From Verrucomicrobiaceae bacterium (GTDB lineage: Bacteria; Verrucomicrobiota; Verrucomicrobiia; Verrucomicrobiales; Verrucomicrobiaceae), in contig JAEUHN010000053.1 of the NCBI GenBank assembly GCA_016795365.1, positions 1-64,000 on the forward strand: 64,000 nucleotides of DNA, in the 5' to 3' direction. The translations under genes and the position numbers were made by a program. The notes beneath the pieces are model-generated. The model made no database searches. It saw only the letters and a program-made list of their open reading frames with translations, and had not been told where the DNA came from. Below, one piece after another: positions 25,816 to 38,995 of the stretch. Positions within the stretch are counted from its first letter, which is position 1. Every line of letters starts with the position of its first letter.

Positions 25816-26214
25816 CTACTTGATCAGGCGGAAGTTGAGCGGGTAGCGCAGGAGCCATCCCTGCTGGGCCTTCAAAGCTCCGATCACCACCAGCATGAGA
25901 GCGGCGAAACTGACCAACGAACTGATGATGCTAACGATCGAGGCAACGAACAGAGAGCCCAACAGGCCGGAAATGAAGCCGAGCGGGAACATGAGGATCA
26001 TGAGCGTGATGCCCATGTTGAGCGCCTCCTTGCCATGGGCATCGACTGCCGGACTGGCTTTGCGCTTCCAGGGCCAGATAATCAAAGGGAACAGATGAGC
26101 GAGCAGCACGAAGGTGCGCTCCTGGTCGATGGACATGCTGCCGCCGCCGAAAGCGGGAGCGGATTCAATGCGGATCGGAAGGCGATTGCTGGGATCAAGG
26201 GTAACGGTGTTCAT
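25816..26214 (-). CDS. DUF4870 (Tic20-like) membrane protein
   Basis: 132 aa from the Met at 26214 (MNTVTLDPSN). After a soluble N-terminus come SIDQERTFVLLAHLFPLIIWPWKRK, a polar loop with AVDAHGKEALN, and two further hydrophobic segments. This is the DUF4870 layout, in which a short loop carries a conserved H/Q-x-x-E-A-L-N. Function is unknown. It has its own promoter region with the conserved regulon motif (26292-26325) and lies beyond the terminator of the upstream operon. Confidence 0.85.
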   Translation of the reverse strand: MNTVTLDPSNRLPIRIESAPAFGGGSMSIDQERTFVLLAHLFPLIIWPWKRKASPAVDAHGKEALNMGITLMILMFPLGFISGLLGSLFVASIVSIISSLVSFAALMLVVIGALKAQQGWLLRYPLNFRLIK

Positions 26215-26291: not shown

Positions 26292-26325
26292 GGTATGGGA
26301 CGAAGGGACTACGACTTTGGTCTGA
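26292..26325 (-). promoter_or_regulatory. Conserved regulon motif, copy B
   Basis: The plus strand reads GGTATGGGACGAAGG, then CTACGACTTTGGTCTGA. It is identical at 26 of 34 positions, ungapped, to copy A upstream of the FG-GAP gene. It ends 77 bp before the DUF4870 start. A related perfect dyad, TCCGACCTTGGTCGGA, lies at 26373-26388. Confidence 0.65.
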
Positions 26326-26462
26326 TTTCGTGGCCTGAGAGCCGCGAAGTAGCGTTGTCCAGAGCTGTGCAATCCGACCTTGGTCGGAGGCGTGGAAATG
26401 TTGTCACGCCGCCTTCAGTCTTTGTCCCGCAATGGGTTTCAGAGACTGGTGAACGAAGCATT

Positions 26463-26508
26463 GAAAACAAAAAGTCCACTGCACGCTGCAATCGCGCACA
26501 GTGGACTT
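26463..26508 (-). terminator. Rho-independent terminator (minus strand)
   Basis: AAGTCCACTG (26472-26481) pairs with CAGTGGACTT (26499-26508), 10 bp. On the minus strand it is followed by TTTTTGTTTT. It lies 32 bp after the stop of the DUF3592-like gene and closes that operon. Confidence 0.85.
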
Positions 26509-26540
26509 GTAATTGCCGATGGGAGTTTGCTCTTAGGGAC

Positions 26541-27089
26541 TCAGAACCTGCCCAAATAGACGTTGCGGATCAGTGGCTTGTTAGGTGCGGAGTCCAGGAC
26601 GATGAGATCAACTTCATGACCTTTGAAGGTGCCATAGACCGACGGTGAATTCGGCAGCTTCAGCGATACCTTCTTGTCTTCGCCCTTCCAGGTGTAGCGA
26701 ATGACCGCATAGTAGGACCGGATCGTGGGGCGCTGGAATGCGGGAGTGGTGTCGCTGTGATTCGCCTCGCGTTCGTAAACCTCCATGTCTTCGACCTTCC
26801 CCTTGATGGTGGTGCCCTCCGTGAGGACCTTCTTGACCCAGAGGTAGCGTCGCAACAGGATGAGGGCTGCCACTGCCGCGACCGTGAACGCGCCCACAGG
26901 CACCCACTTTGACATCGCGATCTCAAACGAGAGATCCACTCCAGGCGGTGGTGGATTGGGCGGGGTGACGAGGAGAAAGCCGACGCCCACCATGAGCATG
27001 AAGCCCATGGTGTTGGCGGCACGCTTGAAGGGGAGGTCGCGCCAGAAAAGGGAGGGAAGACTGGGGATGGTGGGGGGAGCGGGGTTCAT
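26541..27089 (-). CDS. DUF3592-like membrane protein
   Basis: 182 aa, function unknown. Two membrane segments (about 27-43 and 63-80), then a cytoplasmic or periplasmic beta-rich domain: GTTIKGKVEDMEVYERE, YYAVIRYTWKGEDKKVSL, GHEVDLIVLDSAPNKPLIRNV. The order of a G-x-V strand, a Y-x-V-x-Y strand and a terminal V-D-L-x-V-x-D-x-x-P matches DUF3592-type domains. Last gene of a minus-strand operon that begins at 29817 or 29455 and stops at the strong terminator. Confidence 0.65.
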   Translation of the reverse strand: MNPAPPTIPSLPSLFWRDLPFKRAANTMGFMLMVGVGFLLVTPPNPPPPGVDLSFEIAMSKWVPVGAFTVAAVAALILLRRYLWVKKVLTEGTTIKGKVEDMEVYEREANHSDTTPAFQRPTIRSYYAVIRYTWKGEDKKVSLKLPNSPSVYGTFKGHEVDLIVLDSAPNKPLIRNVYLGRF

Positions 27090-27119
27090 GAGTCGGTTTC
27101 AGGTTGAGTTGTCGTGCGT

Positions 27120-28430
27120 TTACTGGGTCAGCCAGCGAACTGCCGACTGCCCCTGCCAGACCGTGGGACGCCAAGTCCAGCCAGCCTGCGTGATAGTGTT
27201 TTGGATGGGAGATTTCATCTCGCTGAGATCGAACTTGTAACTGTAGCTCGCCTCGGGCTTGAGCCTTCCTTGCTCATCCAGTTGAAGGCCAAACACGTGC
27301 TGCTCCTCCCTCTGGAAGAACATGATGCCCATCGCTGCTTGCCATTGAATGGAGGCACTTTGTCGTCCGACGGACCAGTCGAAGGCCGCCGTGTAGTCCG
27401 TGGCATAGACAGAGTGAGTGGACTCATCCAGCGTCATGCGAATGCGGAAGGTTCGCTTCATGCCGTGTGCGCGAGCAAGGTCGATCCACTTCGCGTCTGC
27501 GTAGCGCCAGTCGGCAATCCATTCGTTGGGAGCGCTTCCTTGGGCGATGCTGAACGGCACATCCAGTTCATTGATCGCCATCAAGCGCGACACCAGATGG
27601 CTGGGGAGCAAAGCTGGCAAATTGCCGGCCGGCTTGGACCTGGTGGCCCAGGCTGACCCTTTGAAGAACAGGACCGTGTAAATGAGGATCAGCAAACCGA
27701 TTCCGATGATCTTGGTGAACGTGGGAGCAAAGAATTCCGCGAGAGGTTGCAGTGCCGGGATCAAAGGTGGGCGAGAGGCCGGAACAAGCGCGGGGAAGTG
27801 GAGGGGGATATTGGTGGCTTCACGTCGTTCGGCTGCTGCCTCCTTGGTCAAGCCACTCCACACAAAGAGGTGCCTGCCGATTCGAAGCATCTCGATGTGA
27901 TCTCCTTGAACGCGTGTGGCCTGCCAGCCGTGCTCTTCGTCGCCGGAGACATCCCGCAGTTGGTAGGCACGATGGTAAGCCTGAGCTGCCCGCCGGGCTT
28001 GTTCATTGTCCTGAAACTGGGCAATCAGAACGGTGGCTCCGTCGAGGCTTACGCCGACCTCTGCAATCTCCGCTCCATCAAGGATGCCTGGCAATCCTGC
28101 TCGGGCATCCTGAATGAACGCGGGTGAGATGCCTGGTCCAAAGAGCCGCTCTCGATCAGCGAATCTTCCATCGCGGACGGCGAGCGCTGAAGATGCTGTT
28201 GCCAGGCCGGGCTGGCGGGCAAGGGTGAGCTGGCCCACAACAAAGGTGGCGATGACTGGAAACATCAGCCCGATGATGAATGCGATGGGCTTGAGCGAAG
28301 CTCCTGCCCGGCGCATCATTTGGGCAATGATTCCGAGAACCATGAGGGGACCGATGCAAAGTGCCAGCGCCACTGTCAGGCCTGGGTTGGCGCGCAGAAC
28401 ATCGAGGATGGTGGGCAAGGTCATGATCAA
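27120..28430 (-). CDS. Membrane protein of unknown function
   Basis: 436 aa, not recognised. Two N-terminal membrane segments (about 16-38 and 46-66) and one near residues 235-255 frame a periplasm-sized domain of about 165 residues (AEVGVSLDGATVLIAQFQDN, RIGRHLFVWSG). The C-terminal domain is beta-rich (WIADWRYADAKWIDLARAHG, FRIRMTLDESTHSVYATDY, QREEQHVFGLQLDEQGRLKP). It is encoded 6 bp after the 146-aa membrane protein gene, so it is part of the same operon. Confidence 0.7.
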   Translation of the reverse strand: MIMTLPTILDVLRANPGLTVALALCIGPLMVLGIIAQMMRRAGASLKPIAFIIGLMFPVIATFVVGQLTLARQPGLATASSALAVRDGRFADRERLFGPGISPAFIQDARAGLPGILDGAEIAEVGVSLDGATVLIAQFQDNEQARRAAQAYHRAYQLRDVSGDEEHGWQATRVQGDHIEMLRIGRHLFVWSGLTKEAAAERREATNIPLHFPALVPASRPPLIPALQPLAEFFAPTFTKIIGIGLLILIYTVLFFKGSAWATRSKPAGNLPALLPSHLVSRLMAINELDVPFSIAQGSAPNEWIADWRYADAKWIDLARAHGMKRTFRIRMTLDESTHSVYATDYTAAFDWSVGRQSASIQWQAAMGIMFFQREEQHVFGLQLDEQGRLKPEASYSYKFDLSEMKSPIQNTITQAGWTWRPTVWQGQSAVRWLTQ

Positions 28431-28436
28431 CGCGGG

Positions 28437-28877
28437 TTAAGGTGTCCTGGTGGCGCCATCGCAGCAGAGGCTCATGGCGTAGTAGCCAAACCAGACGACC
28501 AGGAAGGGCAGGCAAACGATCTCAAGGTCGGGGCCGGCGATGATCATGCGCACGTAGCCGATCATCACGACTGCGGCGAGCAGTGCTACGGCGTGAAGAA
28601 ATCCTCGCGATCCTGGCGTGAAGGCGGAGATGAGCATGCCGATCGACAGCGCTCCGATCGCGATCTGCCAGGCGCTGATGTGGAAGGGTGTTGTTTGTGG
28701 TGCCGTGCCTTCGGTGAAGGCGCTCGCGAAGAGCTTCGTCACGTAGCCGAGCACTTGCGCTCCTTGCTTGGCCGTCGATGCAGTGTCGCGAAGAAAGAGC
28801 ACCAAGCTAAGCAGAATGAGTGAGCTGAGCGACGACAGCATGGTGAGCCCGCGAACGATGATGAAGAGCGCCTTCAT
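28437..28877 (-). CDS. Small four-helix membrane protein
   Basis: 146 aa, not recognised. Four hydrophobic segments (about 10-28, 70-86, 92-112, 122-138) separated by short polar loops suggest an integral inner-membrane protein. Its start overlaps the stop of the upstream zinc-ribbon gene as ATGA (28874-28877), so the two are translationally coupled. Confidence 0.75.
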   Translation of the reverse strand: MKALFIIVRGLTMLSSLSSLILLSLVLFLRDTASTAKQGAQVLGYVTKLFASAFTEGTAPQTTPFHISAWQIAIGALSIGMLISAFTPGSRGFLHAVALLAAVVMIGYVRMIIAGPDLEIVCLPFLVVWFGYYAMSLCCDGATRTP

Positions 28878-29455
28878 GAGAGCGGCGGATAGATCGCGTT
28901 CTCGTTGGGGTCGTTCTCATTGTAGAGCACCCACACAGGCTGGCCTGAACTGCGGAGGGTAGCCGTGGTGTCGAAGGTGATGATCTGGCCTTCGTGCCAC
29001 TGATCGCCGATCGGGAAGTGATAAACCACTCGCGAGGGATGACGGCCATTGATCTGCTGGCTGGCGTCTATGCCGACACGTTCAATGCGCCCCTCCACTG
29101 CCTTGCCCGACTTGAATGCTCGGAGGCGTCCAGCGGCAGACTTCCACCCATGCCTGAACATGGAAACTCCTCCAAGGAGGAAAAAGCCAGGAATCAAGGC
29201 AGGGAGCCATAGCTTGTTGGCCAGCATCGGCACGGCAATGAGCAGTCCGATGCCGGTGAAGCCCAGACCTACCAGTGTGGCGATGTTCTCTGTCCAGCGC
29301 ACCCGCTTCACGTAAGTGCTGGGGAGCTTACGTGGAGCCGGTGGCGGTGGCTCGCCCAGCTTCATGCCGGGAGGAGGTGGCAGAGGGCCGCCGCATTGCT
29401 TGCATTGGCTCTGCCAGTTCACATATTCAGTGGTGCACCAAGGACAGGTATGCAT
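28874..29455 (-). CDS. Zinc-ribbon, DUF3592-like membrane protein
   Basis: 193 aa. The N-terminal zinc ribbon (CPWC and CKQCGG, spacing C-x2-C-x11-C-x2-C) is followed by a Pro-rich linker, two membrane segments (about 57-74, 80-98) and a C-terminal DUF3592-like beta domain (GKAVEGRIERVGIDAS, SRVVYHFPIGDQWHEGQI, VWVLYNENDPNENAIYP). It has the same type of end domain as the operon-final protein at 26541, which suggests paired function. Biological role unknown. Confidence 0.75.
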   Translation of the reverse strand: MHTCPWCTTEYVNWQSQCKQCGGPLPPPPGMKLGEPPPPAPRKLPSTYVKRVRWTENIATLVGLGFTGIGLLIAVPMLANKLWLPALIPGFFLLGGVSMFRHGWKSAAGRLRAFKSGKAVEGRIERVGIDASQQINGRHPSRVVYHFPIGDQWHEGQIITFDTTATLRSSGQPVWVLYNENDPNENAIYPPLS

Positions 29456-29535
29456 GACGGCAGGAGGGTGAAGATGGAAGGGTGGAGAAGGGCAGCCTCA
29501 GTCTGAATGCTTCTCCACCATGACAAGGGCTGAAC

Positions 29536-29817
29536 TTATTTGGCCGAACGAACGACAACGGCGCTGATCGATTCGATGGAGATGGAGGCTTCGAACATCT
29601 CCATGCCGGTGAGCGAGGTGAGATGAACGATGCTGTCACCCACAAAGGCGACTTTGCCGCTGATCTTCTCTCCGGACTTGAGCCTGAGTTCCACTTGCTT
29701 GCCAGACTGAGACTGAAGCACAGCGGCTTGAGTGCTGTCTTTGGCTGGCGTGAGGGTATCGGCTTGAGCGCTGATGGTCATGACGGCGATGAGGGTGAGG
29801 ATGTGCAGTGTTTTCAT
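29536..29817 (-). CDS. Small exported protein with Sm/LSM-like strand pattern
   Basis: 93 aa: signal peptide (MKTLHILTLIAVMTISAQA), then about 70 residues with the strand order of an Sm-like barrel: KQVELRLKSGEKISGKVAFV, GDSIVHLTSLTG, MFEASISIESISAVVV. The pattern V-x-L-x-x-G-x-x-I-x-G-x-V and the closing I-x-x-I-x-x-V are those of LSM folds. Because it is exported, RNA binding is unlikely. The fold call is inference. It lies 80 bp upstream of the zinc-ribbon gene and behind regulon motif copy C. Confidence 0.6.
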   Translation of the reverse strand: MKTLHILTLIAVMTISAQADTLTPAKDSTQAAVLQSQSGKQVELRLKSGEKISGKVAFVGDSIVHLTSLTGMEMFEASISIESISAVVVRSAK

Positions 29818-29885
29818 GGTGTGGATGTTGGTGATGGTCTGTGTTGCCTGGTGGCGAGCGCATCTTCGCTGATGCCGCCGATTCG

Positions 29886-29919
29886 TAAATGGACCGAAGG
29901 TCGTAAGACTTTAGTCGGA
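29886..29919 (-). promoter_or_regulatory. Conserved regulon motif, copy C
   Basis: The plus strand reads TAAATGGACCGAAGG, then AAGACTTTAGTCGGATA. It aligns without gaps to copies A and B (C-[CG]-AAGG, TA, GACTTTRGTC), and the motif ends 68 bp before the 93-aa gene start. A partial second core, GGACTTTGGCGTGA, follows at 29930-29943. Confidence 0.65.
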
Positions 29920-30000
29920 TAAGCAGGGCGGACTTTGGCGTGACTTAACGTGATCGGGTGGGAGTTCCATGGCTCGCTGTCCAGCCGCCAAAACGTCAAC

Positions 30001-30024
30001 GCGGCCTCTGTTGCCAGAGGCCGC
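30001..30024 (-). terminator. Hairpin after FG-GAP gene
   Basis: GCGGCCTCTG pairs with CAGAGGCCGC (10 bp, 4-nt loop), 55 bp beyond the minus-strand stop at 30079. A short T run follows some 8 nt later, so it is likely but not ideal. Confidence 0.6.
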
Positions 30025-30078
30025 GCATCGTTGGTTCCCTCAACAACGAATCGCAGGGAAACTATTGGAAGTGGCTGG

Positions 30079-33000
30079 TTACTTCGCCAGCCAGTGCATG
30101 GCACCGCTTTCACCGAGGTAGTCCAGCACGGTGGGCTTGGTGCTCATGAAGTAACCGTGACCGCCCTTATTCGCACCTTTCTGCATGAGCACGCCCTGCC
30201 ATTTGGGACTGGTGTTGTCGCTGTGCTTGAAGGTGCCGCTGACATTGCCGGTGGTGAAGACGGGCACGAAGGTGAAGCTGGTGTCCGTGGTTGGAGCCTT
30301 GGTCAGCACGTTGGTGGTCGTGAGGTTGACGAACTTCGTCACCGTCGAAGGGAGCAGGCCGTCGGTGAAGTTGAGGTTCGTATTGCCCGTGGTCGGGTTG
30401 ATCGCGGCGAGACCAGGGAACACGGTCGCGGGTGATGGCGTGTATTTGCTGGCCAGCATGTCGATGTAGATGCCTTCGTCCCAGCCATAGGGATACCATT
30501 GCACGACCTGGAACGGGCGGAACCAGAGCATGTTCATCGCGGTGGCATCGGTGTCGGTTTGCGTGTCGTCCAGCACGGCGTCGGCAGCGATGCAGCCCTT
30601 GTTGACATACAAGGCCTGGTAGATGGGCCAGTGCTTGGCTTGTGAGAGATTGCCGCTGAATGTCACAGGTGTGTCATCAGCGAGCTTGCCAGACGCGGAG
30701 ACGCTGCCGTTAGCCATTACCTTGAAGGTGAGGTAGCCATCGCCCTGCGGGTAATCGTGCGTGGTGAAGCCAGCGCCCTGTGAGGTGCGTGCTTTGAGAC
30801 GCGCGGTGTAGCCCTTCACATACGCGGCTGGAACGATGCTGGTGGTTCCATTGAAGTGGTGGCGGTCGGTCTTGATGTCCGACTGCGAGATGATGTTGCT
30901 GAGCTTGAACTCGGTGAGTGTTCCGGTGATGCGGTTCGTCGCGCCGGTGAGGTCGGCGGTGAGCGCGAGCACGAGCCAGGGCTTGCCCGGACGCAGCAGT
31001 TTCATGGTGGTCTCGCGATTGACACCAAATCGGGCGACGCCCGTGTTGTCGCAGGTGGCCACGATGGGCAAGGCAAGACCGTCGATCTTGATCGAGCCAG
31101 TAAGTGCGCCGGTGGTGGTGAGCTTCGCGGTGCAGAGCCCGGTCGTCGAGTTGCTCATCACGGTGCCGCCGCTTGGTTGTGAAGCCGAGGCAGTGATGAG
31201 ACCGCTGAAGTCACCTGTCACCGCAGCGGTGAAAGGATTGACGATGAACTTCGCGGTGAGCGTGAGCTCCGGTTGCATGATGAAAGCAAGCGTGGGCAGC
31301 TCCATCTTCAGTGGCGTGATTTCGGTGCCGGTGGTGTTGTTCACGGTCCAGCCATCGAAGACAAAGCCGGGCTTTGGTGTGGCGACGATGGTGTAGCTCT
31401 TCCCGACTTGGCGATTTGAGGTTGGCATAAACCCTGTGCTCACGATGCCGCTGTTGGCAGGTCCGCTGACGCTCACGGTGAGCGTGCGCAGATGCGTGAA
31501 GGTGCGCGTGACGATGGCGGAGATGTTGCCTTTGAAGTCCAGCGCGCGGATGCGCACGGTATTCAAGCCCGGTGCAGGTGTCACGCTGGTGGTGAAGGTG
31601 GTGTTCGTCGAGCCTGGAGAGGCGACCGTAACATCGCTGAACGCGCCGTTGTTCAGTGAGAGTTGCGCCTTCGCTATACCCACATTGTCGGTGGCCGTGC
31701 CGCTGACGACGACGGGCAAGGTGTCCACGATGGTGGCTGCGTTTGCGGGTGCGGTGAAGGTGGCGATGGGCTTCACGAGTTCCGTTGCGGAAGCCGGAGG
31801 GAGAACAACGACCGTAGCAGTAGAGGGCGAGCCGAACGTCGCCCCAATGCTGCCGTTACCGAGGGAGATGGTGAATACCTTCGCGCTCGTGGTGGTGGCG
31901 CCCGGGGCGATCGGGATCATGAGATGCTGCTCGCTGATGCCATCGCCGAACGACACGGCAGTATTGGTTTGCACCGTGTAGTGCGTGGGAGCGATAGCTG
32001 AGCCATCGATGCTGCTTAGTGTGCAACTCACCGGTCCGGCGGTGCTAACGCTGCGCTGAATGACGATGTCTGCCATGCTGCCTGCGGTGCTGCTGGCAAC
32101 CGTGAATACAGGGCTAGCAAAGGCGAGTGTGCCAGAGCCTGGGACATTGGCCGTGATGCTGTAAGTCTTGGTCGTGACGGTGTCTTCCGCTGTGACGACG
32201 ATGGTGATGGTGTTGTCGCCGAGATTGAGTGCGATGCTACCGCTCGCATTGCCGGAGGTCACTGCATTGCCATTGACGGTGATGGTCGCGCCTGACTGTG
32301 CTTTGGTCGGCGTAACGCTCATGGATGAAGTGCCAGGAGGAATGGCTGCCGTATAAGTGATCGTCGCTGATGCGAAGTCGGGCGCGAGGGTGCCAGTGCT
32401 AAGCGTGAGAGCGGAGAGATTGGCATTGCTGCTGGGTGGTCCGAAGATTGCCACGGCCCCCTGATCGCGTCCGTTCACGTCGGAGTTCGGTATGCCAACC
32501 GCGATACGCGATCCTTGGATGCTCACCGCTGTGCCAAACGCATCTGCCTGGGTGGGTGAGGGATTGTTCAGGATCGCGAGCGGAGTGGCAGGTGTGGCGC
32601 TGGCGAGATCGAACACATAGACTCTACCCGCATCCGTGGCACCGGTGTCGTTGCCTGAAACACCGACGACAATCTTGGAGCCAGCAAGTGAGAGCGAGGC
32701 ACCAAAGGCATCGCTGAAAGTGGGACTCGGATGATCAATGGTGCGCACAGGTGTGGTCGGTGTGGCACTGGCGAGATCGTATTCATAAATGCTGCCGACT
32801 CGCACAACGGCTCCCACTGATGCGGACTTGGCTGCTACGACGATGCGATTGCCATCAATGGTGACGGCGCTGCCAAATTCCTCGCTATTGGTCGGTGTTG
32901 GATTGGTGAGCACATGCACGGGCATTGAGGGAGTGACACTGCCGAGATCAAAGACATAAGCGATGCCAGCGCCGACCGCGCCAGTGCCATCGCCACGCGC

Positions 33001-34848
33001 GCCCACGATGACTTTTTGGCCGGAGATGGCAACGCTGCCGCCGAACTCGTCTCCTGCGGACGGACTGGGATTGATGAGTGTGTGAACTGGCACATCAGGT
33101 GTGGCGCTGTTCATATCATAGACGTAGGCGCTGCCGGCATTCAATGCGCCGGTGTCGTCCTGGGGTGCTCCGATGACAATCAAAGATCCCGAGAGCGCTA
33201 CGGAGCTACCGAAGGTGTCGCTAGAAGCCGGAGTCGGGTTGAGCATCGTGAGCACAGGCACCTTCGGAGTGGCACTGGAGAGTTCGAACACATAAGCGAG
33301 TCCGGCCGTGACCGACGGAGCGAATGCATTTGGGGCACCTACCACCAAGCGTGTGCCTTCGAGGGCCACTGAGGCTCCGATGCGGCCATTGATGTCGGTG
33401 AGGAGGTTGTCAATGACGAGCACCGGCGTGCCTAGCGTGGCGCTATTCATGTCATAGACAGACACCGTGCCAGCGTTGGCACCCACCAAGTCATCGTCGG
33501 GCAATCCGACTGCCACCAACGAGCCGGAGACGGCTACAGCCTGGCCGAAGTGATTGTCTGCGGCTGCACTTGTGTGGGCCAGTGTCAACACCGGCACCGT
33601 GGGCGTTGCGGACGAGAGGTTGTAGAAGTAGCCCGAGCCTGAGTTGGGAGCAGCGAGATCATCTTGGGAAGCTCCGATGAGAATGCGGTTTCCAGAGAGT
33701 GCCACAGAGGTGCCAAAGAAATCCTGGGTGGCCGGTGCGGGGTTGTTCAGCGTGTGAACTGCCACGGTCGGCGTGCCGCTGGCCAGATCATAGACATAGG
33801 CGCTACCCGTCTGAGCCCCGTTGAAGTTGTCCCGGCTGGCAGTGACGACGAGGCGGGTGCCTTGTAACTTCATCGCCGAGCCAAAGAAGTCATTGGTCTG
33901 GGGTGTGGGGTTGTCAATCGTGTGCACGGGCACAGCCGGTGTGCCGCTGGAGAGATCATAGATATAGACGCTGCCTGCGGCGACGCCGCTGACCATGTTG
34001 GTGGAGGACGCAATTCCCACCAGTGATCCGGAGAGGGTGATGGTGCCGCCGAAGTTCTCGTTGGCGAGCGGGTCGGGATTGTTGATCGTGTGCACCGGGG
34101 TGCTTGGTGTGCCGCTGCTGAGATCAAAGACATAAGCGATGCCTGCATTGGTGGCACCCGTGTCATCGCCCGTGGAGGATACGACCAGTGTATTGCCGTC
34201 CAGCGCGAGTGAGATGCCAAAGCTCTCGCTGGCACCTGGCGTGGGGTTATCAATGGCTAGCGTATGGACGGTGGGTGTGGCACCCGCGAGATCGTAAACG
34301 TAAACACGTCCGGCGTCCGTGGCACCCGTGTCATTGTTGTTCGCACCAACGACGAGGCGGTTGCCCGATAACGCGATGGCAGCACCAAAGAAGTCATTGT
34401 CGGAAGGCGATGGATTCGGGATCGAGAGCACTGGCACGGTCGGGGTCGCGCTGGCGAGGTCATACACATACACGGAACCTTGGGCGGTGTTGGTTCCGTG
34501 TGTGCGTCTGGCCGCCACGATGAGGCGGTCTCCTTGCAAGATCACCGAGCCACCAAACTCCTGGCTGGTCTGCGCCACAGGCGCAGAGATCGTTATTTGC
34601 AGCGCCCCGGTGGTGGCATCGAAGATCTTCACGCTACCACCCAGATTGGCGACGGTGCTGTCGCCAGTGCCGCCGAGCACGAGGCGGTTGCCATCCAGCG
34701 CACTGGAGCTGCCGAAACGGCTCCCTGCCATGAGGTCTGAAGGAGCCTGCAAGGTTTGTTGTAGTGTGTAGGCCGGTGCTTGGGAGAAAGCTGACCGTGC
34801 AGCGAAGAGCAGACATAGCAGCGTGATCAGCAGTGAGTTGGATTTCAT
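30079..34848 (-). CDS. Giant secreted FG-GAP/beta-propeller protein
   Basis: 1589 aa. Signal peptide (1-22), then about fourteen repeats of roughly 58 residues (about 30-810), each with FG-x-x-x-A-L-x-G-x-x-[LI]-V-V-G, D-T-G-A-x-[DN]-A-G and Y-V-Y-D-L-x-S-x-T-P. These are FG-GAP/integrin-alpha-like propeller repeats, probably calcium-binding. Next is a cadherin-like beta-sandwich domain (NANLSALTLSTGTLAP), then Calx-beta-like and Ig-like segments and an InlB-type repeat (KSYTIVATPKPGFVFDGWTV). The C-terminal about 350 residues are another beta-rich region. No cell-wall or PEP-CTERM anchor is seen. A surface or secreted adhesin-like role is inferred. Transcribed from a divergent region shared with the histidine kinase. 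Confidence 0.85.
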   Translation of the reverse strand: MKSNSLLITLLCLLFAARSAFSQAPAYTLQQTLQAPSDLMAGSRFGSSSALDGNRLVLGGTGDSTVANLGGSVKIFDATTGALQITISAPVAQTSQEFGGSVILQGDRLIVAARRTHGTNTAQGSVYVYDLASATPTVPVLSIPNPSPSDNDFFGAAIALSGNRLVVGANNNDTGATDAGRVYVYDLAGATPTVHTLAIDNPTPGASESFGISLALDGNTLVVSSTGDDTGATNAGIAYVFDLSSGTPSTPVHTINNPDPLANENFGGTITLSGSLVGIASSTNMVSGVAAGSVYIYDLSSGTPAVPVHTIDNPTPQTNDFFGSAMKLQGTRLVVTASRDNFNGAQTGSAYVYDLASGTPTVAVHTLNNPAPATQDFFGTSVALSGNRILIGASQDDLAAPNSGSGYFYNLSSATPTVPVLTLAHTSAAADNHFGQAVAVSGSLVAVGLPDDDLVGANAGTVSVYDMNSATLGTPVLVIDNLLTDINGRIGASVALEGTRLVVGAPNAFAPSVTAGLAYVFELSSATPKVPVLTMLNPTPASSDTFGSSVALSGSLIVIGAPQDDTGALNAGSAYVYDMNSATPDVPVHTLINPSPSAGDEFGGSVAISGQKVIVGARGDGTGAVGAGIAYVFDLGSVTPSMPVHVLTNPTPTNSEEFGSAVTIDGNRIVVAAKSASVGAVVRVGSIYEYDLASATPTTPVRTIDHPSPTFSDAFGASLSLAGSKIVVGVSGNDTGATDAGRVYVFDLASATPATPLAILNNPSPTQADAFGTAVSIQGSRIAVGIPNSDVNGRDQGAVAIFGPPSSNANLSALTLSTGTLAPDFASATITYTAAIPPGTSSMSVTPTKAQSGATITVNGNAVTSGNASGSIALNLGDNTITIVVTAEDTVTTKTYSITANVPGSGTLAFASPVFTVASSTAGSMADIVIQRSVSTAGPVSCTLSSIDGSAIAPTHYTVQTNTAVSFGDGISEQHLMIPIAPGATTTSAKVFTISLGNGSIGATFGSPSTATVVVLPPASATELVKPIATFTAPANAATIVDTLPVVVSGTATDNVGIAKAQLSLNNGAFSDVTVASPGSTNTTFTTSVTPAPGLNTVRIRALDFKGNISAIVTRTFTHLRTLTVSVSGPANSGIVSTGFMPTSNRQVGKSYTIVATPKPGFVFDGWTVNNTTGTEITPLKMELPTLAFIMQPELTLTAKFIVNPFTAAVTGDFSGLITASASQPSGGTVMSNSTTGLCTAKLTTTGALTGSIKIDGLALPIVATCDNTGVARFGVNRETTMKLLRPGKPWLVLALTADLTGATNRITGTLTEFKLSNIISQSDIKTDRHHFNGTTSIVPAAYVKGYTARLKARTSQGAGFTTHDYPQGDGYLTFKVMANGSVSASGKLADDTPVTFSGNLSQAKHWPIYQALYVNKGCIAADAVLDDTQTDTDATAMNMLWFRPFQVVQWYPYGWDEGIYIDMLASKYTPSPATVFPGLAAINPTTGNTNLNFTDGLLPSTVTKFVNLTTTNVLTKAPTTDTSFTFVPVFTTGNVSGTFKHSDNTSPKWQGVLMQKGANKGGHGYFMSTKPTVLDYLGESGAMHWLAK

Positions 34849-34911
34849 GGTGGTCTCGATAGAAGAGTGATTGAACTGACGAGCCCACCCTGCACTTGAA
34901 CCGCTTGGCGC

Positions 34912-34945
34912 GGTATTGTCCCAAGGTGCTACGACTTTAGTCTGG
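34912..34945 (-). promoter_or_regulatory. Conserved regulon motif, copy A
   Basis: The plus strand reads GGTATTGTCCCAAGG, then CTACGACTTTAGTCTGG. The core GACTTTAGTC (34933-34942) is a dyad (GACT/AGTC). It lies 63 bp upstream of the FG-GAP gene start. Confidence 0.65.
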
Positions 34946-34982
34946 CATGCCGTCTGCCAACCCTTGAGATTGCGTGGTCAAG

Positions 34983-35010
34983 CAAGGCGCTATTGAACTT
35001 TAGTCCGATA
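34983..35010. promoter_or_regulatory. Regulon motif, divergent copy D before the kinase
   Basis: CAAGG-N3-TA, then GAACTTTAGTCCGATA: the same elements as copies A-C, with 2 bp more between TA and the core. It sits 39-66 bp before the histidine kinase ATG and may serve it, or act as a second site for the FG-GAP gene. Confidence 0.5.
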
Positions 35011-35048: not shown

Positions 35049-38000
35049 ATGATTCGTTTTCTCCTCTTCTCGGTCCTTGCTCTCACGTCAGCCCTTGTGG
35101 TGACGGTGCAGGGACAGGCCGATGTTTTGCCGATGACCTCGGTGGAGGCGGTGAAGCGGGTGCAGCTAGGAGAGGCGGTCGCCCACGCCTTCCCGGTGCG
35201 ACTCCATGGAATCGTCGTGAGTGCGGGGCCCGTGCCGCAGCGCTTGGTGCTTCATGACGGGAAAACGTCGATCATGGTGATTGCTCCCGTCCCCATGCCG
35301 AACCTGCGCATTGGTCAGGAGGTGGACGTGGAGGGCTACGTATCGAACTACGAGCTGAACAAGAAGCGGTATCACATGATCGCGGCGACCAGCGTGAAGG
35401 CAGGCGACTTCCAGCCGCTGCCTGCTGCAAGTCCCGCCAGCTTTGCCGAACTCAATGCCTGCGAACGTCGTGATCAGTGGGTGAGCACTCAGGGATGGGT
35501 GGTGAACTGGCGTCGCTCATCGTCAAGATTCACGATCAAGCTGGCCTCGAAAGATGGCTGGCTCACCGCGTTGCTGTCAGTGCCTGAGATCGATCAATTG
35601 CCCGAAAACATCCTGGGAGCGAAGGTTCGCATCACGGGAATCAACACGCAGGAGAACAACGCGGGCGAGTCCATTCAGGTGGACTCGATAGATCGCATCG
35701 AGATGCTGGAACCTGGGACCAACGATCCCTTCGATGCGCCGCTGGTAAGCATGAAGGACGTCAGTGCCCGCAAGGTCATACTGGGCAAGCGGCTTCGGGT
35801 GCGTGGCACCCTCATCACCGTGATGGAGCAGCGCAAACTCATCGTGCAGGGCGATGGCGAAACCGCAGCCTTTGCACTCGCCGAGACGCGTGTGCCGGGC
35901 GATGGCAGGACCACCTTCGGTGATGGTGGCGAGGCGCCTGCACTGCTCCCGGGTGATCAGGTGGAGATCATCGGCTCTGCCATCGACCAGCCCTCATTTG
36001 CGATGAAGACTTACGGTATGGTTGATTGCTACGTGCGAGTTACGGGTAAAGGCCGTGTGCCGAAGCCTGAGCAGGTCACAATCGACCAGTTTATGAAGTA
36101 TCGGAGCGAGGGGCACTGGGTCACCTTCGAGGGCATCGTTCACGCATGGATGCTGCAACCCAACGCGATGACTTACTCCGTCGGTGACGAGGAGACCTGG
36201 ACGACCGTTGGAGTGCGCAGCCCCGATGTGACACACTTCCCGAAGGACCTCTTTGGCGCGCGATTACGCTTCACCGGACTTGCCACTGGTCTAGCGCTGA
36301 ATTTTCGCGGCGCGGAGATGATCGTGCCTGATCCCTCCTTCGTGGAAGTCATCAAGACCGGGAAGACCAGCCCTTTCGATGCTCCCGAGTTCTCTACCGT
36401 CGATGTCGCAAACGGACTCGTGCCCCAAGGCGAGCCTGTGCGGACCCGGGGTGTGCTCGTGGGACGCGAGCCATCGGTGCTTTACGTGCGTGGTGAACGC
36501 GCAGCCATTTGCGTCAGTCTTCAGATGCCCTGGGTTCGTCCGGGCAATCCACCGGCCATCGGCTTTGCTGACTGCGGCTTGTTGCCCGAGCTGAAGGTGG
36601 GAGACTTGGTAGAGGTCTCCGGGCATCGAATCCCCTCGCCGCGCTACGCAGCGTATGACCTCGCTAGCTCATCCGTGCGCATCACTGGTCATCAGGAAAA
36701 AGTTTCACCCGTGGACACCACGGTGAACAGGATCACTGCCGGTGAGCACACGAGTGATCTCGTTCAAATTCGCGCACGGCTGCTCACGATCCAGGTCTCT
36801 CCCGTCGGACGTGGCGAATGGCGCACCACAATGCTGCTCAAGGCACGTGGACAGCGCCTCACTGCTGTGCATCAGAGTTCGATCCTGCATCCGTTTGATT
36901 CGCTGAAGGTCGATGATGATCTTCTGGTGCAAGGCGTCGTCGATAAGGCTACACCGGACACCCCACGCCAGTTGTGGCTGTTCTCGCCATTGGATGTGAA
37001 GTCGCTCGGTGTCTCAGCCGAACTTGTGGAGCGCCGCCTCGGGCTCTGGGTGGGATCAAGCGTGCTCGTGGTCGGGCTTTTGTTTGCGTGGATCATGATC
37101 CTGCGCCGCTCACAGCGCCGCCAGGCCGCCGCCACGGCCGCGCTGAAGGAGGCTACTGACGCTGCGCGCGCCAGCGAGCAGCGCTGGAAGCTGCTCTTTG
37201 AGCAGAGCCCGCTGAGCGTGCAGATCTTTGCACCTGATGGACAGACCAAGCGCTTCAACGAAGCCTGGCAAAAGCTGTTCCGTTTGTCTGAAGAGCAAGG
37301 CTATGCCTTCAATGTGCTCAACGATCCTGACCTGAATGCTTCGGGCGCAGTGAATGCGATTCGCAAAGCTTTCGAAGGGGAAGTCGTGCATGTGCCTCCT
37401 GTGCCTTATCCGGTGCCAGGCGATCCACCGGAGACGCGCTGGATCGGCGGTGTGCTTTACCCCGTCAAGAATGAAGCGGGCGAGGTGATCGAAGTGGTGA
37501 CGATTCACAATGACATCACCGAGATGAAACAGGCCGAGGAGTCGATGCAGGCGCTCAACCAGACGCTCGAACAACGAGTGCAGGCACGCACCGCCGAGCT
37601 GGAGGTCGCGCGCGCCAATCTAAGCAAGGCCCTGGAGCAGGAGCGGGAACTGAACGATCTGAAGTCGCGCTTCGTGAGCATGGTCAGTCATGAGTTTCGC
37701 ACGCCTCTTGGGGTGACGATGTCGGCTGTGGAGATCATGCGGCACTTTGATGACAAGCTGCCTCCCGAGAAGCGGCGTGAGCTATGTGATGAGATTCACG
37801 GAGCCACGCGCAACATGGCCGGACTCATGGAGCAGGTGCTCGTCCTTGGTCGCGTGGAAGCCGGCAAGCTGGGATTCCGCCCCGCTCCGGTGGATCTGGA
37901 AGTGCTGATCAGCAAGTTGATCGACGAGTCCCTCTCGGCGACGAATCGCAAGTGTCCGATCAAACTTCACTGCGAAGGGGATCTCTCAGGTGCTCGGGGA

Positions 38001-38360
38001 GACGAGGCTCTGATCCGTCACATTTTGAGCAATCTCATCCACAACGCCGTGAAGTATTCTCCCGAGGAAGTCGATGTCATGGTGAGGGTCGGGCGCGATG
38101 GCGGGGATGTAGTCTGCGAGGTCGAGGACCACGGCATTGGCATTCCAGAGCATGACCGCGCTCATCTTTATGAAGCCTTCCACCGCTGCACGAACGTGGG
38201 CGACATTCCTGGCACCGGCCTCGGGCTCGTGATTGTGAAACGATGCGTCGATCTGCATGAAGGCAGCATCGAATTGAAGAGCGAAGTCGGGAAAGGAACG
38301 ACTTTCATCATCCGCTTACCCATGTTCGATTGTTCACGTTCAGACTCCCACTCCCAATGA
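35049..38360 (+). CDS. Hybrid-sensing histidine kinase with OB-like sensor repeats
   Basis: 1103 aa. Signal-like segment (1-24), then about 630 extracytoplasmic residues that read as six tandem OB-fold-like repeats (strand pattern V-x-x-x-G-x-V, then a ligand strand, then G-x-x-V-x-V-x-G; examples VRLHGIVVSAG and IGQEVDVEGYV). A membrane segment is near 664-686. It is followed by a PAS domain (WKLLFEQSPLSVQIF), a coiled coil, HisKA with SMVSHEFRTPLG (His about 881), and the ATPase domain with HNAVKYS, DHGIGIPE and GTGLGLVIVK. All catalytic boxes are intact. Stop overlaps the response regulator start (ATGA, 38357-38360). Confidence 0.92.
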   Translation: MIRFLLFSVLALTSALVVTVQGQADVLPMTSVEAVKRVQLGEAVAHAFPVRLHGIVVSAGPVPQRLVLHDGKTSIMVIAPVPMPNLRIGQEVDVEGYVSNYELNKKRYHMIAATSVKAGDFQPLPAASPASFAELNACERRDQWVSTQGWVVNWRRSSSRFTIKLASKDGWLTALLSVPEIDQLPENILGAKVRITGINTQENNAGESIQVDSIDRIEMLEPGTNDPFDAPLVSMKDVSARKVILGKRLRVRGTLITVMEQRKLIVQGDGETAAFALAETRVPGDGRTTFGDGGEAPALLPGDQVEIIGSAIDQPSFAMKTYGMVDCYVRVTGKGRVPKPEQVTIDQFMKYRSEGHWVTFEGIVHAWMLQPNAMTYSVGDEETWTTVGVRSPDVTHFPKDLFGARLRFTGLATGLALNFRGAEMIVPDPSFVEVIKTGKTSPFDAPEFSTVDVANGLVPQGEPVRTRGVLVGREPSVLYVRGERAAICVSLQMPWVRPGNPPAIGFADCGLLPELKVGDLVEVSGHRIPSPRYAAYDLASSSVRITGHQEKVSPVDTTVNRITAGEHTSDLVQIRARLLTIQVSPVGRGEWRTTMLLKARGQRLTAVHQSSILHPFDSLKVDDDLLVQGVVDKATPDTPRQLWLFSPLDVKSLGVSAELVERRLGLWVGSSVLVVGLLFAWIMILRRSQRRQAAATAALKEATDAARASEQRWKLLFEQSPLSVQIFAPDGQTKRFNEAWQKLFRLSEEQGYAFNVLNDPDLNASGAVNAIRKAFEGEVVHVPPVPYPVPGDPPETRWIGGVLYPVKNEAGEVIEVVTIHNDITEMKQAEESMQALNQTLEQRVQARTAELEVARANLSKALEQERELNDLKSRFVSMVSHEFRTPLGVTMSAVEIMRHFDDKLPPEKRRELCDEIHGATRNMAGLMEQVLVLGRVEAGKLGFRPAPVDLEVLISKLIDESLSATNRKCPIKLHCEGDLSGARGDEALIRHILSNLIHNAVKYSPEEVDVMVRVGRDGGDVVCEVEDHGIGIPEHDRAHLYEAFHRCTNVGDIPGTGLGLVIVKRCVDLHEGSIELKSEVGKGTTFIIRLPMFDCSRSDSHSQ

Positions 38361-38995
38361 AGAAGATACTCATCATCGAAGACCAGGCCTCCATGCGGAA
38401 GAACATCGCCTTCATTCTCGAAATGGAAGGCTTCAAAACCTGCTCTGCTGCCAATGGACGAGAAGGCGTTGAAGTCGCCAAGGCGGAGAAGCCCGATCTG
38501 ATTCTGTGTGATGTGATGATGCCTGAGCTGGATGGCTATGGCGTGGTGCAGACGCTTCGCGCTGATCCCTCGTTCGCCATGACGCCCTTCATCTTCCTCA
38601 CCGCTAAGAGTGACCGGAATGACATTCGCACCGGGATGAACAGCGGTGCTGATGACTACCTGACCAAGCCGGTGGTGCATAACGAACTGATGGCGGCAGT
38701 CCGCTCGCGTTTGGAACGCGCGAACGTGGTGCAGAGCGCCATTCAAGAGGCCGGTGTCTTCAATCCTGATTTCGACAACTACGTGCCCCTGCAGACCGCC
38801 TTTGGTCTCACGCCTCGTGAAGCCGAAGTGATGGCCTGGGTGGCTCAAGGCAAGAGCAATGGCGACATCGCGATGCTGCTCGACATGAGCGAGCGCACGG
38901 TGAAGCACCACGTGAGCCAGTGCTTCCAAAAGATGGGCGTCGAGAACCGCAGCGCCGCCACACTCATGGCTGTTGAAGTGTTGTCGCGTTCGTGA
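38357..38995 (+). CDS. Response regulator, REC plus LuxR/NarL HTH
   Basis: 212 aa from ATG 38357 (MKKILIIEDQ). REC domain with acidic pocket IIEDQ, phospho-acceptor in LILCDVMMPELDGYG, Thr in FIFLTAKSDRND and Lys in YLTKPV. The LuxR-type HTH at the C-terminus is FGLTPREAEVMAWVAQGKSN, with the recognition helix in SERTVKHHVSQCFQKMG. Cognate of the kinase by ATGA overlap. LuxR-type regulators bind short dyads as dimers, so it is the natural candidate for reading the GACTTTAGTC motif found nearby; that link is inference. Confidence 0.95.
   Translation: MKKILIIEDQASMRKNIAFILEMEGFKTCSAANGREGVEVAKAEKPDLILCDVMMPELDGYGVVQTLRADPSFAMTPFIFLTAKSDRNDIRTGMNSGADDYLTKPVVHNELMAAVRSRLERANVVQSAIQEAGVFNPDFDNYVPLQTAFGLTPREAEVMAWVAQGKSNGDIAMLLDMSERTVKHHVSQCFQKMGVENRSAATLMAVEVLSRS

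Follow-up and report, generated by a model that had tools for sequence, protein, structure and literature searches.

A palindromic DNA box in Verrucomicrobiales, very probably recognized by a family of two-component response regulators

Results and discussion

Upstream of a two-component kinase-regulator operon and its neighbours in a verrucomicrobial genome lies a repeated motif that, on comparison of sequences, is real and looks functional. A family of two-component response regulators very probably binds it, and across the Verrucomicrobiales it stands ahead of the regulator's own gene and of genes for large surface proteins. We analyzed the window, meaning the whole stretch of 64,000 nucleotides (G000:C20:1-64000, from a genome of 6.7 Mb), along with other genomes of the family and order. 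We are quite confident in an explanation in which a clade of NarL/LuxR-family response regulators would use the copies as operators and so control the kinase-regulator operon and neighbouring genes. The window genes concerned are as follows.

25816 to 26214, minus strand: DUF4870 protein, 132 aa (PF09685)
28874 to 29455, minus strand: DUF3592-like protein, downstream of the element-C gene (PF12158, just under the cut-off)
29536 to 29817, minus strand: small exported protein of 93 aa, downstream of element C (83% identical in the sister species, G001)
30079 to 34848, minus strand: FG-GAP giant, 1589 aa (PF14312, ten stretches)
35049 to 38360, plus strand: sensor histidine kinase, 1103 aa (HisKA, HATPase_c, PAS_4; predicted model m1a3137934234)
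38357 to 38995, plus strand: LuxR/NarL-type response regulator, 212 aa, the proposed reader (PF00072 and PF00196; in a clade of 13)

The regulator has the NarL/FixJ architecture, a receiver domain (PF00072) followed by a GerE helix-turn-helix (PF00196). Its gene (38357-38995) overlaps that of the kinase (35049-38360), and a box at 34992-35009 stands ahead of the pair, which is the gene layout of an autoregulated operon. The FG-GAP gene carries internal repeats at 32533-34567 with a 168-bp (56-aa) period. The N-terminal region of the kinase (window 35049-37020) is predicted to form a row of tandem beta domains; a sequence search of this region against solved structures gave no match, its Pfam matches to OB-fold and DUF5666 models were only below the cut-off, and a fold comparison with the whole kinase model as the query listed only the kinase core.

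The repeat unit and its spacing

An earlier note on this DNA had described a 34-bp element shared by four intergenic copies. Three of these, elements B (26292-26325), C (29886-29919) and A (34912-34945), do align without gaps, with A and B 79% identical (repeat family D7 in a repeat search of the window), and the distances of 63, 77 and 68 bp reported for A, B and C are correct for start codons at 34848, 26214 and 29817. The copies are real, but the repeat unit is an 18-bp palindrome, ATCCGACNAAAGTCGGAT, and not a 34-bp block: A, B and C each consist of two 18-bp boxes with cores 14 bp apart and inner flanks common to both, reading TCMGACNAAAGTC-STAG-NNCCTTNGTCCNATACC in gene direction. We interpret the 34-bp element as two boxes with common inner flanks because other genera of the family have it as a perfect palindrome, ATCCGACTAAAGTCGGAT, with NAAA or TTTN as its directional centre; nearly symmetrical forms, for example ATCCGACTTTAGTCCTAGGACCATGGTCGGA, were found in G020 and G023. 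The motif core GACTWWAGTC is present here as GACNAAAGTC, with the flanks ATCC and GGAT. What had been taken for a fourth 34-bp copy with a 2-bp insertion is actually a single box (core 34996-35005), and a fifth, stronger box at 26372-26389 had been overlooked. Elsewhere in the genome, more copies were located on contigs C40, C18 and C1. The boxes in the window are listed here.

26299 to 26308, minus strand: core of element B box 2, 14 bp from box 1; TCCCTTCGTC in gene direction; 0 mismatches to the tandem pattern
26309 to 26326 (core 26313-26322), minus strand: element B box 1, 94 bp before the DUF4870 gene; 20.1 bits; conserved at G001 C209:16345
26372 to 26389, no strand assigned: fifth box, the near-perfect palindrome ATCCGACCTTGGTCGGAG, 63 bp from B box 1; 23.1 bits, the best in the window; conserved at G001 C209:16408
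29893 to 29902, minus strand: core of element C box 2; GACCTTCGGT in gene direction
29903 to 29920 (core 29907-29916), minus strand: element C box 1, 85 bp before the small exported-protein gene; 19.9 bits; conserved at G001 C209:18602
34919 to 34928, minus strand: core of element A box 2; CACCTTGGGA in gene direction
34929 to 34946 (core 34933-34942), minus strand: element A box 1, 80 bp before the FG-GAP gene; 10.6 bits; conserved at G001 C209:23574
34992 to 35009 (core 34996-35005), plus strand: the single box formerly called the fourth copy, 39 bp before the histidine kinase gene and 63 bp from A box 1; 15.3 bits

Box 1 lies 80-94 bp from the start codon at all three minus-strand genes, a distance that would be compatible with activation but is no proof of it. 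Around 83 strong boxes, neighbouring boxes were mostly 14, 34-35, 44 or 63 bp away, in steps of about ten bases. The 63-bp spacing separates B box 1 from the box at 26372-26389 and A box 1 from the single box before the kinase gene, and was seen twice in G001 and also in G036 and G031. Spacings of 14, 34, 44 and 63 bp suggest that binding may be packed and cooperative, along the same face of the helix.

Occurrence beyond chance and conservation

When 3 mismatches were tolerated, the pattern AAGGNNNTANGACTTTRGTC matched 3 times in the window, compared to 0.24 matches expected. Genome-wide (G000), 4 matches were found with at most 1 mismatch and none for the reversed control; the copy beyond those of the window lies on contig C40, where the gene that follows encodes a small membrane protein resembling the DUF3592-like ones. 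Two-mismatch matches in the same genome, at C19 and C55, were not commoner than control matches. Since the pattern was built from the copies themselves, a matrix from other genomes is the better test. With such an independent matrix, made from 33 boxes of genomes other than G000, G001 and G036, the five best scores in the 64 kb were exactly the five boxes (26372, 26309, 29903, 34992 and 34929), where the number expected at 16 bits or more in 64 kb is 0.10. A 284-kb sample of verrucomicrobial DNA lying away from the sites contained only 2 places with at least 10 bits, and by chance 0.0013 such boxes are expected per 200 bp; a weak point is box 1 of element A, with its score of only 10.6 bits. 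Across the family, the tandem pattern gave 22 matches in 10 of 68 genomes, with 0 for the reversed control in all of them.

In the sister species G001, the four sites recur ahead of the same genes, and homologous genes in other genera are also preceded by sites. By this comparison, the promoter function that the earlier note had proposed appears well founded. Two outcomes that the earlier note had named as refuting, loss of the element in relatives that keep these genes and a scatter of matches in coding regions, were looked for, and neither check counted against it. The few boxes that fall "inside" genes stand ahead of the regulator and reflect spurious gene calls. Short palindromic units, several of them in one neighbourhood, also could derive from a mobile palindromic element of the REP or MITE type, or be left over from local duplication. 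We rejected this origin as extremely improbable on account of the few copies and their conserved positions, given that there is only a handful per genome and that positions at the same genes are kept in other species while the flanks diverge, with sites at homologous genes in other genera as well.

An identical sequence, GTCCGACTAAAGTCCGATAGCG, was observed at G005:C38:10530, G006:C243:5748 and G007:C7:35497, with no gene called directly adjacent; these sites are about 1.2 kb from another box, which in G005 precedes a fatty-acid hydroxylase gene.

The candidate reader

The earlier note had pointed to the LuxR-type regulator as the reader of the element and to an autoregulated system. In a tree of regulator homologues, the window regulator belongs to a well-supported clade of 13 (100/99). 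A box starts 55-62 bp before the regulator start codon in 10 of the 13; in the remaining three (the window, G001 and G008), kinase and regulator form an operon and the box, degenerate in G008, precedes the kinase gene. None of the 16 family paralogues outside the clade, all of which have other helices, has a box upstream; this family-level test is partly circular, as the matrix includes some of those sites, a circularity from which the out-of-family test and the test of the window with the 33-box matrix are free. Of 17 out-of-family orthologues with the recognition helix EKT(A/V)KQH, 15 have a box upstream, and the G111 regulator, with the helix EATVKKH, has none. In further named genomes, a box was detected for 8 of 13 regulators with the helix versus 3 of 37 without it; each of the three exceptions carries a KRH helix, and the variant box ATACAACTTTGGTCGTAT is common to two. 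Orthologues with the right helix and no box are L240, L247/G086 and L261.

The regulator and the palindrome also co-occur. Within the family, the palindrome is present in 11 of 12 genomes with the regulator versus 6 of 56 without it, and in the rest of the order in 14 of 18 versus 23 of 203, although these counts and the exact tests on them overstate significance because the genomes are related. Where genomes lack the regulator, many of the one-mismatch matches are confined to a single strand, as expected of chance matches. Tandem sites are present in G002 and G006, genomes only 75% and 85% complete, in which the regulator was not found. Collectively, the placement of the boxes, the dependence on the helix, the co-occurrence and the recurring targets support, through comparative genomics, both the link to the regulator and autoregulation, the latter being suggested by the box before the regulator gene or the kinase-regulator operon across the clade. 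For the kinase-regulator operon, autoregulation is likewise supported because the box is retained in the promoters of the kinase genes in G001 and G036, as GCGCTATTG(A/G)ACTTTNGTNC(G/A)ATACC, adjoining a tandem element.

Upstream of the KRH-helix regulators L254, L268 and L249, at about 65 bp, we noted a variant palindrome (ATACAACTTTGGTCGTAT for two of them and ATACGACCAAGGTCGCAT for the third), the boxes of the three reading ATAC(A/G)AC in place of ATCCGAC. The pairing of a variant palindrome with the KRH helix hints that operator and helix changed together.

We considered whether an alternative sigma factor might instead recognize the element as its -35/-10 promoter signature, a reading that would fit the directional tandem copies 80-94 bp from start codons and the recurring NATACC end. 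This is very unlikely, since many sites are single symmetrical boxes serving divergent genes, for example regulator and globin, since box spacings vary in steps and the presence of the boxes tracks the recognition helix of the response regulator, and since the ATA end is accounted for by the outer flank of the palindrome.

A doubtful, though possible, variation is that the sites in the window are read by the paralogue encoded at G000:C18:127190, or by both regulators; operator and regulon would be unaffected, with the window kinase-regulator pair then mainly a target. The C18 regulator is 70% identical to the window regulator, a near-perfect box lies 57 bp ahead of its start, genomes with only a C18-type regulator also have tandem boxes, and the window regulator has R-K-H in its helix where other clade members have K-K-Q. 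However, G001 (87% complete) has all the sites, and only a window-type regulator was found there; the sites also cluster around the window-type operon, which itself has its own conserved box.

For the favoured explanation, with the boxes as operators of the regulator clade, we propose that one regulator dimer would read one palindromic box; many targets offer a second box 14 bp off or a further box at 34, 44 or 63 bp. Phosphorylation by the linked sensor kinase would alter transcription, probably switching it on, with phosphorylated dimers occupying box 1 and then, cooperatively, box 2 or a distant box. The proposed targets are the kinase-regulator operon, the FG-GAP giant, the DUF4870 gene and the gene run starting with the small exported protein.

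Putative target genes

The families that recur behind boxes include 14 kinases similar to that of the window, 12 FG-GAP or DUF7453 giants and 9 globins, together with the regulator, 5 small relatives of the C40 protein, 4 DUF4870 proteins (assigned by Pfam) and 5 targets from one unnamed exported family; DUF3592-like genes also are among the target families recurring between genomes. Gene calling in this survey relied on a simple codon-usage script, with which single gene starts may be wrong. The surface-protein regulon suggested in the earlier note thus holds for the FG-GAP giants but is too narrow, as sensor kinases, globin and small membrane proteins are also found. In G000, G003, G005, G007, G019 and G023, a single box lies between the divergent genes of the regulator and a globin, and the recurrent globin targets hint at an oxygen or NO signal.

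A second kinase and regulator of the same clade are encoded at G000:C18:124127-127825 (L092), with four boxes before the kinase gene and one between the regulator and a globin gene. In G020 and G023, short related proteins are encoded beside double boxes (L104 5716-6351, L104 from 11311 and L112 from 14510); two show the motif HNETLVRAKDL, and the one tested had no Pfam or NCBIfam match.

Comparison with known regulators

The closest parallels are with DosR/DevR of Mycobacterium tuberculosis, which recognizes the box TTSGGGACTWWAGTCCCSAA (PMC2275270), needs cooperative binding to packed sites and is autoregulated (PMC3029386). Both are NarL/LuxR-type response regulators, the palindrome core GACTWWAGTC is common to both, and the two or more packed sites per DosR promoter resemble the packed boxes of the window clade. 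DosR autoregulation (PMC3029386) likewise has a predicted counterpart in the box ahead of the regulator's own gene here. Lys182, the key base contact of DosR (PMC5999986), is kept in the verrucomicrobial clade, where position 179 is Lys or Arg: the DosR contact residues K179, K182 and N183 correspond to R, K and H in the window regulator and mostly to K, K and Q in other members, so that His or Gln replaces Asn at position 183. In contrast, the DosR flanks are GG/CC (GGGACT...AGTCCC) and the verrucomicrobial ones ATCC/GGAT, the DosR sensors are GAF-heme kinases (DosS/DosT) whereas the window kinase has PAS_4, HisKA and HATPase_c and no GAF match, and the verrucomicrobial targets, in a different phylum, are surface giants, kinases and globins. 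The regulon of DosR, the dormancy regulator of tuberculosis, is induced by hypoxia or NO; among the verrucomicrobial targets, globin genes recur. Because the operator flanks and the sensor kinase differ, we consider that the system may work like DosR without being a member of that group.

The route taken here resembles that for OsdR of Streptomyces coelicolor, functionally equivalent to DevR, for which a palindrome upstream of its own orthologues was used to predict the regulon and binding was shown (PMC5069765). The OsdR consensus is different, AGGGCCGATCGGCCCT (PMC5069765), and its binding has been demonstrated, whereas that of the verrucomicrobial regulators is predicted from sequence. CrbR of Pseudomonas, also a LuxR-family response regulator with an imperfect palindrome (the ACTU motif), has one predicted site, TACGACTAAAGTCTAAA, with the same core (PMC5715377), but it differs in its hybrid kinase with a symporter domain, its acetate genes and its occurrence in Gammaproteobacteria.

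In the open-access literature, we found no described two-component regulon for Verrucomicrobia and no paper on a verrucomicrobial two-component system and FG-GAP proteins, which is weak evidence of absence. Starting from a single intergenic repeat, the analysis would arrive at a regulon complete with defined operator, a clade of readers and families of targets, very large FG-GAP surface proteins among them, and the link between box and recognition helix would provide a natural series for how LuxR-type regulators shift specificity. More speculatively, and with a rather low likelihood in our view, there could be an order-wide, DosR-like network in Verrucomicrobiales in which oxygen, NO or redox state is sensed via tandem-beta-domain kinases that switch giant surface proteins and globin, operator and recognition helix having changed together. 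The regulator and the boxes are also present in Brevifollis (Prosthecobacter) gellanilyticus NBRC 108608, a strain recorded outside metagenomes, which makes the regulon testable.
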